A DNA stretch of 43,242 bases from Nitrospirota bacterium (GTDB lineage: Bacteria > Nitrospinota > Nitrospinia > SZUA-224), in the NCBI GenBank assembly GCA_003229375.1, contig QIDP01000059.1:1-43242 (forward strand), given 5' to 3'. The position numbers and the translations under genes were made by a program. Positions 8,557 through 32,278 of this stretch are shown piece after piece (position 1 is the stretch's first letter; each line of letters begins with the position of its first letter). The notes under the pieces were generated by a model. It was not told where the DNA came from. It ran no database searches and saw nothing but the letters and a program-made list of their open reading frames with translations.

Positions 8557-8811
8557 TTATGCAGCTTCGTAGTGGACAACCGACATTTCAGAATGTAGTT
8601 CCTCTAATCTATCAAGAAGAGATTCAACCTTGTCCACTACACTGCTTTTCATATATGCCTCACCACAGTCTGAACAAATTTCAGCAGGCACATCTTTAAT
8701 AACAGTAACTTTCTCACCAATAAGAAACGGTATTGTAGTGATTCCCTCACGCATCTCTCCACCACATAAAGGACACCTCTTAACCTTGTCTTTTCCTTTT
8801 TTTCCAGCCAT
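8557..8811 (-). CDS. YgiT-type zinc-finger antitoxin-like protein
   Basis: 84 residues with two CXXC pairs, CPLC (13-16) and CSDC (46-49), the YgiT/MqsA N-terminal zinc-finger pattern, including 'P.E.C..CGE.Y'. It lacks the C-terminal HTH of MqsA. It overlaps the end of the DUF4258 gene by 32 bp, and the pair (toxin first, zinc-finger second) is the recurrent DUF4258/YgiT toxin-antitoxin arrangement. Predicted role: neutralise the adjacent protein. It is the last gene of a minus-strand run that starts in LPS core genes. Confidence 0.8.
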   Translation of the reverse strand: MAGKKGKDKVKRCPLCGGEMREGITTIPFLIGEKVTVIKDVPAEICSDCGEAYMKSSVVDKVESLLDRLEELHSEMSVVHYEAA

Positions 8812-9133
8812 CTTCCCACCTCTCAGTAGACGGTCTGTAGACCGTCACTATTAATATCCTATCAAAATCTTTGTCAATCGCTATAACCGAATGTACAGGA
8901 TCAGCACCAATAAAACCAAGAACCAGACAGTCCGGAAGTGATCTGCCTTTCTCATGGTAATTTTCAATTATTATACATTTTTTTAGAAAAATTTCAACCT
9001 CCGTTTTTCTCAGTCTCTCAATCCTTAGTTTCTTAACACCGTGTAAAGACCATAAAATCTTCTCATTGGCAATAGGAACATGTTCACTTGCCTTTTCTCT
9101 TATAAATTGTTCTTTTTCTTCTTCAGAGATCAT
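8780..9133 (-). CDS. DUF4258 protein, putative RelE/BrnT-like toxin
   Basis: 117 residues with the DUF4258 pattern: SLHGVKKLRIERLRKTEVE near 28-47, 'LPDCLVLGFIG', 'HSVIAID' and a C-terminal 'ILIVTVYRPSTERWEDGWKKRKR'. DUF4258 proteins resemble RelE/BrnT-type small nucleases and are typically paired with YgiT-type antitoxins, as here. The start lies 1 bp after the heptosyltransferase stop, so the toxin-antitoxin pair is transcribed with the LPS genes unless it has its own promoter. Toxin activity is inferred from family and pairing. Confidence 0.75.
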   Translation of the reverse strand: MISEEEKEQFIREKASEHVPIANEKILWSLHGVKKLRIERLRKTEVEIFLKKCIIIENYHEKGRSLPDCLVLGFIGADPVHSVIAIDKDFDRILIVTVYRPSTERWEDGWKKRKRQG

Positions 9134-12045: not shown

Positions 12046-12105
12046 CACGGACAAACAAGTTTGTCCATGCCACCCAACACATAAAGACTCATTTCATCTA
12101 TTTCC
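12046..12105 (-). repeat. Hairpin leader repeat, copy 2 (upstream of msbA)
   Basis: Reverse-strand copy of the roughly 60-bp repeat: GGGAAATAGATGAAATGA ... GGGTGGCATGGACAAAC-TT-GTTTGTCCGTGG. The stem is at 12049-12066, 21 nt from the msbA ATG. The other end encodes the last residues and TGA stop of the upstream WaaE-like gene, so the repeat has replaced that gene's natural end. Confidence 0.75.
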
Positions 12106-12849
12106 CGCCCTCTTTATCTCCCACAATTTTACATACTTTAAAAAAGTGTAAAATGAATGGCCGACAGATAATATAAACCCGAGCCCCCCTTCACGAAATC
12201 CCATCCTTAGAACATATACCTTAATAAATGCAAAGATCGGCCTAAGAGATAAATCATACCAGCGGACCACTCTTCCCTCCCCCGCCATACCCTGTGCTGC
12301 CAATGATGAGTATCTGTTCTGGCGTGAGATATAGTCACTCAGGTTATTATAAGTATAGTGCTTTATAGGACCTCTAAGCATACCGGGACGGCCATCCACC
12401 TGCACAGATTCGTGTACATCTGAAGGAAGAAAACTTGCTCTCTTCTTGTTATAAAGTCTTACAATGTAATCAGGATACCATCCACAATATCTGATCCACC
12501 TTTCCCCAAAATAATTCTTTCTAGGTACAAGATAGGCACTGAGAGGAGGGGTGGATGATAAAAGCTCCATAAGCCCGGCCTTCAGCTCAGGTGTAACAAC
12601 CTCATCAGCATCCAGATTAAATATCCAGTCATTCTCTGCCCTTTCCGCACACAAATTCTTCTGCCTTCCATATCCTAACCATTCATTCTGAAATAGCTTG
12701 TCTGTATACTCCCTGCATATCCTCTCTGTATTGTCCGTGCTGCAGGAATCCAATACAACTATCTCATCCGCCCATCTTACACTATCAAGACACTCCCTTA
12801 TGTTCTTCTCCTCATTGTACGTAATAATCGTTACAGATAACTTGTTCAT
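12094..12849 (-). CDS. GT2 glycosyltransferase, WaaE/KdtX type (LPS core)
   Basis: 251 residues. 'LSVTIITYNEEKNIRECLDSV' at the N-terminus, 'VVLDSCSTDNT' and the DXD-type 'FNLDADE' near 80, then 'YLVPRKNYFGERWIRYCGWYPDYIVRLY', a signature of WaaE-like LPS core beta-glucosyltransferases. The C-terminal part carries a short hydrophobic segment. Its final residues (GNR) and stop are supplied by the hairpin repeat. Sugar specificity is not determinable. Confidence 0.8.
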   Translation of the reverse strand: MNKLSVTIITYNEEKNIRECLDSVRWADEIVVLDSCSTDNTERICREYTDKLFQNEWLGYGRQKNLCAERAENDWIFNLDADEVVTPELKAGLMELLSSTPPLSAYLVPRKNYFGERWIRYCGWYPDYIVRLYNKKRASFLPSDVHESVQVDGRPGMLRGPIKHYTYNNLSDYISRQNRYSSLAAQGMAGEGRVVRWYDLSLRPIFAFIKVYVLRMGFREGGLGFILSVGHSFYTFLKYVKLWEIKRAGNR

Positions 12850-13042
12850 AGCAATTTTCGATTGTTGATTTAGGATTGGTTCTTCCTCTTACCCCCCCAC
12901 CCTAACCCTCCCCCACAAGGGGGGAGGGGACTGACTTTCATGGAAAAAGGAGACTTTCTCATCTCTTGATGGGAGGGGAGATAACATCCCATCATCTTCT
13001 TTCCCCCTCCCCTGGTAAAAACACCTCATCTTCTCCTCTCTC
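12850..13042. other. Intergenic, C/G-skewed REP-like sequence
   Basis: No gene. It contains CACCCTAACCCTCCCCCACAAG at 12898-12919 followed by GGGGGGAGGGG, and further 'TCTTGATGGGAGGGGA' palindromic pieces. A close match to the first string (CCCTCTAACCCTCCCGCACAAG) lies at 13684-13705, on the other side of the DUF559 gene in the same orientation. Confidence 0.6.
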
Positions 13043-13273
13043 TTGATGGAAACACTATTTCTTCTCTTTACTCCCTTGATGGAAACACTATTTCTTCTCT
13101 TTACTCCCTTGATGGAAACACTCTCTCTTCTCTTTACTCCCTTGATGGAAACACTCTCTCTTCTCTTTACTCCCTTGATGGAAACACTCTCTCTTCTCTT
13201 TACTCCCTTGATGGGAATACTCTCTCTTCTCTTTACTCCCTTGATGGGAATACTCTCTTTTCTCTTTACTCCC
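13043..13273 (+). repeat. Seven tandem 33-bp repeats
   Basis: Seven consecutive units beginning TTGATGG.AA.ACT and ending CTTTACTCCC, each exactly 33 bp, with three sequence sub-types in order 2+3+2 (ATTTCTTCT, CTCTCTTCT, GGGAATACT). A diverged eighth unit follows at 13274. The repeat length is a multiple of three, so both strands stay open; on the minus strand each unit encodes an 11-residue HQGSKEKRE-- repeat at the end of the DUF559 protein. There are no spacers, so this is not a CRISPR array. Confidence 0.92.
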
Positions 13274-13672
13274 TTGATGGGACTTCTTTCCTCTTCTTCT
13301 CCCCTCCCTTGATGGGAGGGGATTAAGGGGAGGGTGATTTAAACAATTTACCCCTATCACCTCTAATACACCATTTATATTTTTCAAGACATCATTATTC
13401 CAAAACCTCAAAACAATAAAACCTTGTCCTTTAAGCCACCTATCTCTTTCATTGTCTCTCTCTTTTTCTATTGTATGTTGTCCACCGTCTACCTCTATCA
13501 CTACACGTTTTTCAAAACAAACAAAATCCACTATATAATTACCAATTGGCTGTTGTCTCCTAAATTTAAGCCCTTCTAATTGCTTTACTCGTAAATGTCT
13601 CCATAATAAATTCTCCGCATCAGTAGACCTCTTTCTAAGATTTTTAGCAATATTGACGAGCTTACCACTCAC
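13088..13672 (-). CDS. DUF559 (Vsr-like endonuclease fold) protein with repeat-encoded tail
   Basis: 194 residues. Residues 1-113 are a standard DUF559 domain: 'RKRSTDAENLLWRHLR', 'GLKFRRQQPIGNYIVDFVCFEKRVVIEVDGGQH' and 'DRWLKGQGFIVLRFWNNDV', with the D...E.D nuclease-type residues of the Vsr/PD-(D/E)XK fold. The next part, 'HPPLNPLPSREGRRRG', is a translated REP-like palindrome, and the rest is six 11-residue repeats from the 33-bp array. Its GTG start overlaps the stop of the upstream GT9 gene (GTGA). The function of DUF559 proteins is unproven; the tail is probably a by-product of repeat DNA. Confidence 0.8.
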   Translation of the reverse strand: MSGKLVNIAKNLRKRSTDAENLLWRHLRVKQLEGLKFRRQQPIGNYIVDFVCFEKRVVIEVDGGQHTIEKERDNERDRWLKGQGFIVLRFWNNDVLKNINGVLEVIGVNCLNHPPLNPLPSREGRRRGKKSHQGSKEKREYSHQGSKEKREYSHQGSKEKRECFHQGSKEKRECFHQGSKEKRECFHQGSKEKK

Positions 13673-14781
13673 CTCTTAATCCCCCCTCTAACCCTCCCGC
13701 ACAAGAATGAAACTATCTCATTATAAACCCTCTCACTACTCAATGGCCTGTCATCTCTTTCCTCCAGTATCCTGTTCGGCACATCGAACGGTCCCCACCT
13801 CTCAGGCTGTCCATGTTTGAATATGGCTATAACCGGCGTCTTAACCGCGGAGGCAATATGCATTATTCCGGTATGATTACATATAAGCAGATCAGATCGA
13901 TCTGTCACCACTGTCAATTCCCTGATCGAGAATTGTGACGCCACAATAGGTCTCTGTTTCACCAACCTCATCATATGGTCATGCAGATCATCCTCTCCTG
14001 GGCCAAATATCAATATAACCTCCCCTACCCTCTTGTCAGTTAATCTATTACATATCTCTACATAATTAGAGAGAGCCCATCCCAGCGCCCTCACCCTTGA
14101 ACCAGGATTGATGGATATCAGAGGAAGCTCAGGGGACCTCCTGTTTTTCGTGAGAAACCCCTTAATCCTCGATTCCTCAGAGGCGGATACAAAGATATCA
14201 GGTTTCTTTATAACATCCCTGATCCCTAAAGACTCTATGAGAAATAAATTATTCTCTATCTCATGCCGCAATATACCATCCTTAGGGATCTCTACATCAT
14301 AAAAGATGGCGCTGTATCTGTCCCTGTATCCAACCCGATACCTTGCCCTGCTTAATAATGAGATCAGAGAACCTGTTACTGTAAAGGAATGAGACAGGGT
14401 GAGAGATAAATCGATTTTCTCTCGCCTTAATCCTGTGATAAAACTGAAGAGCTTTCCGGGAGAACTGATAAATCCCTTTTTGTCATATATAAACGTCCTT
14501 TTTATATATGGGTTTTCCTTGACCACCTTATATCCACCCGGACCTACTACTATAAATAACTCTGCATCAGGAAGGGATTTCTTTAGGCTTGTTATCACCG
14601 GGGTGGCTAAGATGGTATCCCCTATCCTGTCGTGTCTGATGATAAGGATCTTTTTTATCTTTCTCAGGTCTATATCCTCTGTTCCATCTAAAAGATCCCT
14701 TTTTCGGGAAATACCTTTTCTTAACCTGTGTATTAAAAGGACTCCCTCCCACATTAGATTCTTGAGCCCTCTAAAATTCAT
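13669..14781 (-). CDS. GT9 heptosyltransferase-family protein
   Basis: 370 residues. 'KILIIRHDRIGDTILATPVITSLKKSLP' (about 44-71) and the C-terminal 'ISINPGSRVRALGWA', 'ILIFGPGEDD' and 'LICNHTGIMHIASAVKTPVIAIF' define glycosyltransferase family 9. It is likely an LPS core heptosyltransferase or a related sugar transferase. The last seven residues (GRVRGGIKR region) are encoded by REP-like DNA preceding the DUF559 gene, so the native C-terminus may be altered. It follows the Trm112-like gene by 2 bp. Confidence 0.82.
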   Translation of the reverse strand: MNFRGLKNLMWEGVLLIHRLRKGISRKRDLLDGTEDIDLRKIKKILIIRHDRIGDTILATPVITSLKKSLPDAELFIVVGPGGYKVVKENPYIKRTFIYDKKGFISSPGKLFSFITGLRREKIDLSLTLSHSFTVTGSLISLLSRARYRVGYRDRYSAIFYDVEIPKDGILRHEIENNLFLIESLGIRDVIKKPDIFVSASEESRIKGFLTKNRRSPELPLISINPGSRVRALGWALSNYVEICNRLTDKRVGEVILIFGPGEDDLHDHMMRLVKQRPIVASQFSIRELTVVTDRSDLLICNHTGIMHIASAVKTPVIAIFKHGQPERWGPFDVPNRILEERDDRPLSSERVYNEIVSFLCGRVRGGIKR

Positions 14782-29583: not shown

Positions 29584-30648
29584 TCAACTCAACTCAAAAT
29601 ACTCAAATGTCTCCCTTAACCCTGCCAATAAGTTATACCTTGGTTCAAATCCTAATATCTTCCTTGCCTTGGAGATGTCTGAAAAGTTCCTTTTAACATC
29701 ACCGGGTCGAGGGCTTTCATATACGATATTTACTCTTTTACCTGTTTCTCTTTCAACCAGTTCTTTTACAACTTCTGCTATCTCATTGATAGAGGTTTCT
29801 CTATGTGTTGCAATCTGGAAGACTTCTCCACCTGTGTCAACCTTAATAGCAAGTACGATAGCATTTATGAGATCGCTGATGTAAAGAAAGTCACGGGTCT
29901 GTCTGCCATCTCCATATATCTGAAGGGTCTCTTCAGCGAGGGCCTGTTTAAGAAATTTTGCCACCACACTGTTTTTATGTTTTGACCTTAGCCCATAGAC
30001 ATTACCAAACCTGAGAGATACGGTTTTCAGGCCAAAGGTCCTGTAATACGCTGAACAGTAAGCTTCTCCTGCCAGTTTGCTGGCACCGTAAGGTGAAACC
30101 GGTCTTGGAACCTTCCCCTCATGTATAGGAGGCTCAACCTCACCTAAAGGTGCACCTGAGGAGGCAAAAATGAATTTTTGGACATTGTTTTGCCTTGAAG
30201 CCTCAAGCATGTTGAAGGTCCCGATGACATTTACCTCCATATCAAGTCTTGGGGTCTCTACTGATGGAGCAACTCCTGTGTTTGCTGCAAGGTGAACTAC
30301 AACTTTTACCCCTCTTGTTGCTTTCTCCGCAAATCCAGCATTGCGGATATCTTCAATTAGAAGCTCAACAGATGGGTGACTATTACTCTTAAAAATATAG
30401 TTAATCCTTTTGTCACAACATCTCTTTCTAAAATCGCCAAACTCAGATAAAACCAATTCTAACTCTTCTTTTGTCCCTACACTTAAGTCATCCATTATGC
30501 GAATTGTTTTGACCAATCTATTTCTAATTAAAGTTTCGACAAGGTTAACACCTATAAAACCACAACCTCCGGTTATCAATACGTGCTGAGGTGCTGGGGT
30601 GCTGAGGTGCAGGGGTGCAGGGGTGCAGGGGTGCTGAGGTGCAGTCAT
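29584..30648 (-). CDS. NAD-dependent sugar epimerase/dehydratase (extended SDR) with repeat-encoded N-terminus
   Basis: 354 residues. The Rossmann motif GGCGFIG begins near residue 27, 'HLAANTG' and the catalytic YGASK (Tyr-X3-Lys) follow, and the C-terminal 'RPGDVKRNFSDISKARKILGF' is typical of UDP-sugar 4-epimerases/dehydratases. Residues 2-22 (TAPQHPCTPAPLHLSTPAPQ) are a translation of the GTGCWGRG octamer array and not part of the SDR fold. The ATG at 30648 overlaps the stop of the four-helix-bundle gene (ATGA) and has GGGAG upstream, so this is the working start even though the native start seems lost. Product sugar unknown. Confidence 0.82.
   Translation of the reverse strand: MTAPQHPCTPAPLHLSTPAPQHVLITGGCGFIGVNLVETLIRNRLVKTIRIMDDLSVGTKEELELVLSEFGDFRKRCCDKRINYIFKSNSHPSVELLIEDIRNAGFAEKATRGVKVVVHLAANTGVAPSVETPRLDMEVNVIGTFNMLEASRQNNVQKFIFASSGAPLGEVEPPIHEGKVPRPVSPYGASKLAGEAYCSAYYRTFGLKTVSLRFGNVYGLRSKHKNSVVAKFLKQALAEETLQIYGDGRQTRDFLYISDLINAIVLAIKVDTGGEVFQIATHRETSINEIAEVVKELVERETGKRVNIVYESPRPGDVKRNFSDISKARKILGFEPRYNLLAGLRETFEYFELS
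30583..30644 (+). repeat. Octanucleotide array, downstream side of the four-helix-bundle gene
   Basis: Seven full 8-bp units of GTGCWGRG (GTGCTGAG, GTGCTGGG, GTGCAGGG variants) and a partial eighth. It encodes the N-terminal extension of the downstream epimerase and stops 1 bp before the ATGA junction. Its consensus on the plus strand matches the minus-strand consensus of the array at 31029-31100, so the two arrays are inverted. Confidence 0.9.
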
Positions 30649-31028
30649 TGGCGACTCCCTGGCATAAGCCATGGATCCGGATGGATGATCATGTTGACCA
30701 ACTTGCCGATGATGTGGTCATAAGTCTTGTACAATTCCTGGCCCGACTTCTTTGACAAATAGCTGCATTCAACCGAAAAGCGTATCCAAACTTGTGTCTC
30801 GGCCGCCTCGGCCTCAGCATCGTTCAATTTACTCACAAAAGCTGCCTTGTAGCGCCGTTTGCGCCATGCTTCGGAAATGTTTGAACAGACCGACCTCGAC
30901 GAGCGCCGCATCTGATCGGTGAGTGAGAAAGTCTCCTCCCGAGGAAATCCCCTCGAAATTTTAAAGATCCGCATCGCTGCTTTGAAGGCCAGTTGGTACA
31001 CATCCAGCTCTTCGTGACTTTGTATCAC
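30645..31028 (-). CDS. Four-helix-bundle protein (23S rRNA IVP / bAvd family)
   Basis: 127 residues, mostly amphipathic helix: 'HEELDVYQLAFKAAMRIFKISRGFPREETFSLTDQMRRSSRSVCSNISEAWRKRRY' is the family core, then two more helices. This family includes proteins encoded in 23S rRNA intervening sequences and the Avd accessory protein of diversity-generating retroelements; it is a pentameric barrel that may bind nucleic acid. No reverse transcriptase or variable-repeat pair is present. The GTG start (31028-31026) overlaps the upstream stop (GTGA) and the stop overlaps the next ATG (ATGA). Both flanks are octamer arrays. Cellular role unknown. Confidence 0.85.
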   Translation of the reverse strand: MIQSHEELDVYQLAFKAAMRIFKISRGFPREETFSLTDQMRRSSRSVCSNISEAWRKRRYKAAFVSKLNDAEAEAAETQVWIRFSVECSYLSKKSGQELYKTYDHIIGKLVNMIIHPDPWLMPGSRQ

Positions 31029-32278
31029 CCCTGCTCCTCCGCTCCCTTACTCCCCTGCTCCTCCGCTCCCTTACTCCCCTGCTCCTCTGCTCCTCTGCTC
31101 AGAAATCGCACCTTCTTCCTCGTTCCATCCCAGCGGATATCAGGATTTAATGCCTCTTTTCTAACTTCAATCCTGGAGCGGTATTTCATCAGATCATTCA
31201 GCATAATCCGCAATTCCTGTTCCATATCATGGGTAGGTTTGTAACCAAGGTCAGGGAGGTGTTGATGATCGGGGTTATAGTAATGTTCCTCCATCTCTTT
31301 TCTGGGGTTTTCCAGGTTCCGTATGTTAACCTTCAAACCCAGTTCTTCACCGACTTTCTTAACCTTTTGGGCCAACTCTGTAATACTGTAAATCTCCTCA
31401 AATTGGTTGAAGACCCTGTATTCCCCTGGCTTCGGGGGATTTGTGATGGTTAAAGTCAAACATTGCACAGAGTCCCGCAGCGGCAAAAATCCCCTCTTCT
31501 GCCCCCCTCTTCCAAAAGGGGTAAGAGGATGTCCAATAACGGCCTGAGCACAGTAACGGTTTACAGCGGTTCCAAAGCACTGATCGAAATCAAATCTGGT
31601 GACAAGCCGTTCATCATCCTTCATCTCATCTATCCTGGTCCCGAAAACAACACCCTGCATTATATCTGTAGAACGTAAACCCCAAATCTTACATGCAAAC
31701 ATAATATTATGGGAATCATGTACCTTGGTCTGATGATACCAACTACCAGCCTGTCTGGGAAAAGGCAGGGTATCTTTCCTTTCCCGGTATTCTATCGTAA
31801 AAAACCCTTCAGGGATATCAATATTAGGGGTCCCATATTCTCCCATTGTTCCAAGTTTGACCAGATGGGCATCAGGACATGCCTCTTTCATAGCATAGAG
31901 TATGTGTAAAGTCCCGATGAGATTGTTCATCTGTGTAAACACTGCATGATTAACATCCACCATGCTATAGGGAGCGGATGGCATCTCACCAAGATGAACA
32001 ATGGCCTCAGGATCGAAGGATCGAAAACAGTTCAAAACAAAGTTATAATCCCTCAAGTCTCCTTTCCTGAATTGTAAATTCGTGCCAAAATGATCCCTGA
32101 AAGTCTCAAGTCTCTCGGTCATCCTTCTTATCGGTGTGACTGACTGAGACCCCATCTCAGCCACCCATTCCCTCCTAAGGAAGAGGTCACACCCGCTAAT
32201 CTCATGGCCCCTGGCAGCTAAATAAAGGGCTAATGACCAGCCCAGGTACCCATCAACACCGGCAATAAATACTCTCAT
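31025..32278 (-). CDS. sqdB: UDP-sulfoquinovose synthase-like SDR (SQD1/SqdB)
   Basis: 417 residues. Matches the SQD1 plan throughout: 'MRVFIAGVDGYLGWSLALYL', 'KLGTMGEYGTPNIDIPEG' with Thr144, 'YHQTKVHDSHN' with Tyr181/Lys185, equivalent to the catalytic T145/Y182/K186 known for Arabidopsis SQD1, and 'VFNQFEE', 'NPRKEMEEHYYNPDHQHL'. The enzyme makes UDP-sulfoquinovose from UDP-glucose and sulfite. The C-terminal ~22 residues are octamer-array translation. AGGAGG 8 nt before ATG 32278 fixes the start over the upstream frame extension to 32308. In this cluster it could supply a sulfonated sugar for the polysaccharide rather than a membrane lipid; no SqdX is seen. Confidence 0.85.
   Translation of the reverse strand: MRVFIAGVDGYLGWSLALYLAARGHEISGCDLFLRREWVAEMGSQSVTPIRRMTERLETFRDHFGTNLQFRKGDLRDYNFVLNCFRSFDPEAIVHLGEMPSAPYSMVDVNHAVFTQMNNLIGTLHILYAMKEACPDAHLVKLGTMGEYGTPNIDIPEGFFTIEYRERKDTLPFPRQAGSWYHQTKVHDSHNIMFACKIWGLRSTDIMQGVVFGTRIDEMKDDERLVTRFDFDQCFGTAVNRYCAQAVIGHPLTPFGRGGQKRGFLPLRDSVQCLTLTITNPPKPGEYRVFNQFEEIYSITELAQKVKKVGEELGLKVNIRNLENPRKEMEEHYYNPDHQHLPDLGYKPTHDMEQELRIMLNDLMKYRSRIEVRKEALNPDIRWDGTRKKVRFLSRGAEEQGSKGAEEQGSKGAEEQG
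31029..31100 (-). repeat. Octanucleotide array, upstream side of the four-helix-bundle gene
   Basis: Nine 8-bp units read on the minus strand: GAGCAGAG x2, GAGCAGGG, GAGTAAGG, GAGCGGAG, GAGCAGGG, GAGTAAGG, GAGCGGAG, GAGCAGGG, ending directly in GTGA. It encodes the repetitive tail GAEEQGSK... of the UDP-sulfoquinovose synthase-like protein. Confidence 0.92.

Follow-up and report, generated by a model that had tools for sequence, protein, structure and literature searches.

Within the window, i.e. the whole stretch of 43,242 nucleotides that was analysed, a DUF559 gene is placed in an LPS operon between a heptosyltransferase-like glycosyltransferase family 9 (GT9) gene (13669..14781, minus strand) and a WaaE-like glycosyltransferase family 2 (GT2) gene (12094..12849, minus strand). 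The DUF559 ORF (13088..13672, minus strand) has a GTG start, encodes 194 aa and reaches 144 bits with the PF04480 (DUF559) profile, above the curated cut-off of 20.6. Its nuclease domain occupies 13352-13657 (minus strand), and the C-terminal tail of the protein is the translation of a repeat and an array. An earlier note on this DNA had described a GTGA overlap between the start of the gene and the GT9 stop, repeat-encoded last residues in GT9 and a DUF559 frame that continues through HPPLNPLPSREGR and a 33-bp array. Each of these features is seen in the window, the GT9 residues being RVRGGIKR and the array comprising about eight copies.

Read in gene sense, the unit consists of a degenerate repeat end, the DUF559 domain, an inverted repeat end, the 33-bp array and an outward-facing repeat copy. 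The start-side end (around 13677..13704, minus strand) retains half a stem and a tail, TTGTGCGGGAGGGTTAGAGGGGGGATTA, which directly precedes the DUF559 start and doubles as coding sequence for the end of GT9. The stop-side end (13301..13337, minus strand; TCACCCTCCCCTTAATCCCCTCCCATCAAGGGAGGGG) is inverted and perfect, with the stem CCCCTCCC/GGGAGGGG and the perfect mirror tail GGGGAGGG. It lies directly after the nuclease domain and overlaps the region 3' of it. The tandem array (13019..13317, no strand assigned) is made of copies that are 93-94% identical, each of which contains half of the palindrome (CCCTTGATGG). A third full stem-tail copy (12892..12929, minus strand; CCCCTCCCCCCTTGTGGGGGAGGGTTAGGGTGGGGG in gene sense) faces outward and differs by one change from the published TM/BoxC consensus. 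Arrays of half-palindrome plus spacer also lie beside DUF559 ends in unrelated genomes (L037, L040, L055, L073 and L099).

The matching strings at 12898 and 13684, which the earlier note took for direct repeats bracketing the unit, are present and identical at 19/22 positions; as a bracket, however, they are two of the three copies of one repeat end, and the copy at 12898 faces outward. When DUF559 loci are compared, the basic bracket in most of them is inverted with the tails facing the gene, and direct repeats were therefore replaced by inverted ends as the basic bracket. In a general inverted-repeat test the window alone scores 13, a value reached by 37/150 random positions and thus not significant, because half of the stem is missing from the start-side end. 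Likewise, the exact core CCCTAACCCTCCC with its variants occurs about 4 times in the window versus 1.1 expected, which is weak alone. The significance of the locus thus comes from the pattern of the DUF559 family, and not from the window's own score.

A degenerate version of the end motif has 24 matches in the window's own genome versus 0 for the reversed control. Only one of them is near a DUF559 gene, and so the question whether copies elsewhere lack the gene can be answered with mostly yes; gene-free copies of the repeat outnumber gene-bearing ones. The solo repeats in this genome form inverted pairs with the tails outward in 7/8 cases, much like REPINs. The GT9-GT2 pair is also present in a sister species (G001), whose GT2 is 86% identical, without the DUF559 unit. 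At the nucleotide level we did not accept this junction as an undisturbed empty counterpart of the window's site, since it carries a fragment of a different dispersed repeat, TTTTCAGATAATAAATTACAC (L136:2240-2290, L026:150-260). In two species, then, the GT9-GT2 junction has received repeats of different kinds.

The AlphaFold2 model of the window protein (pLDDT 89) matches the DUF559 structure 3HRL (Z 16.1), I-Bth0305I, a homing endonuclease (3R3P, Z 12.1), and Vsr (1CW0, Z 10.0), and at the sequence level the profile also finds 3R3P (E 0.0012). Among 40 sequences there is little or no variation at E20, D49, E60, D62 and H66. The predicted fold and the active-site residues place the window protein in the Vsr/EDxHD branch of the PD-(D/E)XK nucleases. 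In Caulobacter, the DUF559 protein VsrA induces the SOS response of cells without a methyltransferase (PMC12907096), and this genotoxicity is indirect support for DNA cleavage as the putative activity of DUF559. In Legionella, DUF559-bearing segments are recombination hotspots (PMC12308824). A role in anti-phage defence was considered and dropped, PADLOC having given a single weak match (DpdF, E 4e-4).

Inverted repeats bracket DUF559 genes in many phyla

We collected 80 DUF559 relatives from public genomes with a query taken from this window, and distant DUF559 subfamilies are therefore under-sampled in this cross-phylum set. As a blind bracketing score we took the best local match between the 200 bp on the 5' side of a gene and the 250 bp on its 3' side, the latter reverse-complemented. 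A score of at least 20 is found for 55/79 DUF559 loci versus 19/620 other ORFs on the same contigs (Fisher p 5e-46), and in 47/58 loci no other gene is bracketed as well as DUF559. Most loci have a common anatomy, with CCCTCCCCCTTGAYGGGGGAGGGTTAGGGTGGGGGTGA immediately 5' of the gene's start codon and AATCACCCTCCCCTAACCCCTCCCATCAAGGGAGGGG immediately 3' of the domain, and it recurs in Sumerlaeota, Brocadia, Desulfobacterota, Spirochaetota, Nitrospirota and candidate phyla.

The window's order holds only 3 genomes, and the survey was therefore widened to the phylum (77 genomes). Within the phylum the same score is at least 20 for 18/28 DUF559 genes versus 0/26 ParE toxin genes. Moreover, 9/150 end-motif matches in the 77 genomes lie at most 500 bp from a DUF559 gene, with 0.13 expected, whereas the reversed motif gives one match. 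DUF559 and the motif also co-occur in the same genomes (odds ratio 5.9, p 0.0005, uncorrected for phylogeny). Repeats are found in genomes with no detected DUF559 gene as well (e.g. G050, G073 and G075). The earlier note had staked its reading on repeats being enriched near DUF559 genes, and in both comparisons the enrichment is very strong. It is near certain that DUF559 genes are specifically associated with bracketing inverted repeats in a fixed orientation, and the window unit is one case of this general DUF559 pattern, which extends over many bacterial phyla.

Where the tails are callable, both point toward the gene in 45 loci and both away from it in 4. Each tail mirrors the purine arm of its stem, G being matched by G and A by either A or T. 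Such mirror pairing is the rule for purine-motif intrastrand triplexes. A perfect mirror tail is found for 124/190 stems, compared to 28 (maximum 44) after permutation of the tails. Of 104 loci, 79 follow the rule on one or both sides and 43 of these on both, compared to 0/27 ParE loci. The stem-tail pairs differ by subfamily (GGGGAAAGG with GGATAGGGG, AAAGGGGG with GGGGGATTT, GGGGGAAGA with AGATGGGGG), and some lineages have a second loop that is formed by a hairpin. The left and right ends of one locus have a similarity of 24.5, versus 14.9 (sd 0.41) for permuted ends, and protein identity correlates with end similarity (Mantel 0.45; highest of 1000 permutations 0.25). Stems and tails thus covary by the triplex rule, and the sequence of the repeat tracks the nuclease subfamily. 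By the same rule, the repeats flanking DUF559 are predicted to be able to fold into triple-stranded DNA. The window's own genome has a second DUF559 gene (L002, contig C131), near genes resembling a type I restriction locus; its palindrome differs (CCCCTCCTTTGGAGGGG, with a hairpin loop and a GGGGTGG tail) and obeys the same mirror rule.

The presence of the unit varies between relatives. In one Gastranaerophilales family priA was found in 116/117 genomes, and 6/116 priA genes carry an in-frame palindrome-DUF559-palindrome in the linker that precedes Walker A. One further priA has a repeat-only remnant at the cassette site, and most have a plain linker. The cassette is thus polymorphic, with empty, repeat-only and cassette-bearing priA genes. 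In-frame cassettes were also found in genes for a UvrD-like helicase, a radical SAM protein, an M14 peptidase, a class I tRNA synthetase, HydF and a GHMP kinase. At these sites the repeats are translated, which excludes a role as terminators there.

The four-helix-bundle (23S_rRNA_IVP) unit of the window, which the earlier note regarded as of the same design, provides a further comparison. Its gene (30699-31013, minus strand; further loci L161-L177 and L181-L186) is flanked by arrays at 30583-30644 and 31028-31100, the family has 10 matches in the window's own genome, and 23S_rRNA_IVP genes are bracketed by inverted repeats in 15/20 cases versus 0/26 for ParE. The shared design thus holds for the bracket, but not for the type of repeat: the units are short and iterated, vary by locus (e.g. 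TAGGGTC, GATGAGTT, CCACGAATCACGAT) and are without stem and mirror tail, so that the comparison is only loosely right. It also follows that bracketing is not unique to nucleases.

ycjD and the BoxC repeats of E. coli

The consensus ends of the DUF559 loci match the published consensus of the E. coli TM motif, CCCTCNCCC-N3-6-GGGNGAGGG-N3-GGGNGAGGG (PMC4666352). BoxC, PIT and TM are names for the same intrastrand-triplex repeats (Holder et al. 2015, PMC4666352). They occur in more than 260 genomes, where they are dispersed, often as inverted pairs, at genetically unstable loci; that study reports no mobility gene near them and mentions neither DUF559 nor ycjD (PMC4666352). The E. coli motif forms a triplex in vitro, footprinting gave no support for it in vivo, and BoxC/PIT elements are cited as having no promoter or terminator activity (PMC4666352). 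The window repeats share with BoxC/PIT/TM the stem, the 3-nt loop, the mirror purine tail (perfect at 13301-13337), the inverted pairing and the dispersal in many genomic copies, as seen in the 24 motif matches against none for the reversed control. They differ in being tied to DUF559, and the DUF559 loci add other stems (e.g. AAAGGGGG/GGGGGATTT) and loops with nested hairpins.

The E. coli DUF559 gene is ycjD (NC_000913.3 1351407-1351760; L155). Its last codons and its stop lie inside TCACCCTCTCCCTGA..., a degenerate BoxC-like end, and a full outward-facing BoxC copy follows about 160 bp downstream; the window has this stop-side order, too. The DUF559 family of the window protein also includes YcjD and NGO0050 of N. 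gonorrhoeae (PDB 3HRL). Both have been catalogued only as putative PD-(D/E)XK nucleases (PMC1189080). Like the window gene, ycjD adjoins copies of the repeat, in its case BoxC. In the freely accessible journal papers naming DUF559 that were covered, no link to repeats is described.

ycjD is carried by 3365/5426 complete E. coli genomes (62%), and BoxC-like sites are present in nearly all of them (median 19). In a spread sample of E. coli the BoxC counts are 3-5 in some genomes and 14-33 in others. One O157:H7 strain is without ycjD, and other O157:H7 genomes have about 15 BoxC copies, which points in the same direction as the repeats in genomes with no detected DUF559 gene. We make no claim on copy number in relation to ycjD, since lineage confounds the comparison and ycjD status is unpaired genome by genome. 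The fabI-sapF interval was likewise rejected as a clean empty ycjD site: UTI89 has an efflux operon there, and the O157:H7 strain has the same first genes as this operon.

A nuclease that may act on its own repeats

In our judgement a somewhat better than even case can be made that the window cassette, E. coli ycjD and BoxC/PIT belong to one widespread repeat-plus-nuclease system, which resembles REP/RAYT and uses a Vsr-fold nuclease in place of the transposase. The earlier note had drawn a parallel to the RAYT-REP relationship, and the analogy is sound for anatomy and copy numbers; mobility caused by the nuclease is what we infer. In REPtrons and REPINs (Di Nocera et al., 2013, PMC3733652), as at DUF559 loci, palindromes flank an enzyme gene and many copies are gene-free, often in inverted pairs and sometimes inside genes. 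RAYT, however, is a HUH tyrosine transposase and not a Vsr-fold PD-(D/E)XK nuclease, and REPs carry GTAG, whereas DUF559 ends read stem-YYR-purine tail, are of the mirror type and have no GTAG. Because both enzyme and tag differ, the DUF559 system is not a member of the REP/RAYT family.

The EDxHD/Vsr-like homing endonucleases such as I-Bth0305I have the same fold and are likewise encoded by mobile genes at sites that are empty in relatives. Polymorphic sites including empty ones, as for a homing gene, were found here for priA (6/116) and for ycjD (62% of E. coli). Homing endonucleases differ from the DUF559 system in that they recognise a non-repetitive host target and are not known to have dispersed gene-free repeats. 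The Rickettsia palindromic elements (RPE) and the CGTC REPs, which are discussed in PMC3733652, are also in-frame palindromes in protein genes, often ones for replication or repair, and have no dedicated transposase known. They have a CGTC tag and a different sequence, and a linked DUF559 gene is unreported.

The window would then contain a small mobile cassette or its remnant, a DUF559 gene between two inverted, potentially triplex-forming repeats. The nuclease may recognise its own repeat, probably in the folded state of single-stranded or extruded DNA, and may nick or cut it. Host repair would subsequently copy the repeats, and occasionally the gene, to new sites, comparable to what RAYT does for REPs or what happens with homing endonucleases. 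In the LPS operon, the cassette would have inserted between GT9 and GT2 and would later have gained the tandem array by expansion of its stop-side flank. That the nuclease acts on the repeats in such a way appears reasonably probable. The repeats in genomes with no detected DUF559 gene, the degenerate start-side end of the window and the footprinting that gave no in vivo support for a triplex (PMC4666352) count against the cassette model, and no target-site duplication was identified. Moreover, a PD-(D/E)XK nuclease alone is not known to have strand-transfer activity, which speaks against mobility.

It may also be that the repeats spread or arise by other routes, for instance by a RAYT-like transposase or by replication slippage and template switching at hairpins, and that DUF559 is carried along or gathers at unstable sites without acting. 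The repeats that exist without DUF559, the instability of BoxC loci by themselves (PMC4666352) and the bracketing of 15/20 23S_rRNA_IVP genes by other inverted repeats in the same phylum would all fit such a passenger. ParE genes, however, are also small, mobile and orphan, but none of 26 is bracketed, and a pure passenger predicts neither fixed orientation nor subfamily-cognate ends nor invariant catalytic residues. We therefore consider this explanation unlikely, if worth keeping in mind. We judge it more doubtful still that DUF559 is a Vsr-like nuclease which benefits the cell through mismatch or structure repair, flanked by palindromes whose sole function is that of terminators, insulators or autoregulatory elements for its transcript. 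This would agree with the Vsr fold of the model, with the fixed position of ycjD in those E. coli that carry it, and with Caulobacter VsrA, which is tied to a solitary cytosine methyltransferase and is a proposed mismatch repair enzyme (PMC12907096). It is at odds with the many copies of the same repeats far from DUF559 genes, with cassettes that sit in frame inside other genes and whose repeats are translated, with the cited inactivity of BoxC/PIT as promoter or terminator (PMC4666352), and with a gene that comes and goes, as ycjD does in E. coli and the cassette in priA. Finally, G+C-rich palindromes are common between genes, and DUF559 might merely lie in a repetitive intergenic stretch. 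The window's own bracket, which is non-significant, and its weak count of the core motif leave room for this, but it is refuted by enrichment, orientation and covariation, and with every family-level test against it we regard it as scarcely credible.

The repeat-plus-nuclease reading suggests DUF559 as the partner that BoxC-type repeats have so far lacked and by which they are spread or maintained. A more specific version, which we put forward tentatively and hold at somewhat less than even odds, is that DUF559 is a structure-specific nuclease for triplex or hairpin DNA that drives the spread of BoxC/PIT, and hence a second REP-like system in many phyla, represented in K-12 by ycjD and about 20 BoxC copies. 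Knowledge of BoxC/PIT elements in E. coli goes back to the 1990s, and they were later found in hundreds of genomes, without an enzyme that explains their spread or the instability around them; DUF559 is a common family of 'unknown function'. A link between BoxC/PIT and DUF559 would provide each with a role that can be tested in a model organism. Should it be true, a Vsr-fold nuclease and triplex-forming DNA would do in this system what a tyrosine transposase does with REPs, and in-frame insertions of palindromes into essential genes would, as a class, have an explanation.

An outer inverted repeat, TTTCTCATnnnGAGTGGGTAA ... TTACCCACTTGAAATGAGAAAGAGCC, surrounds some DUF559 units and some solo repeats (L028, L041 and L005) and is possibly the end of a larger element. 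Elsewhere in the window, a DUF4258 gene and an adjoining MqsA-like antitoxin gene (8557-9133, minus strand), the latter just below the cut-off, form a probable toxin-antitoxin pair.
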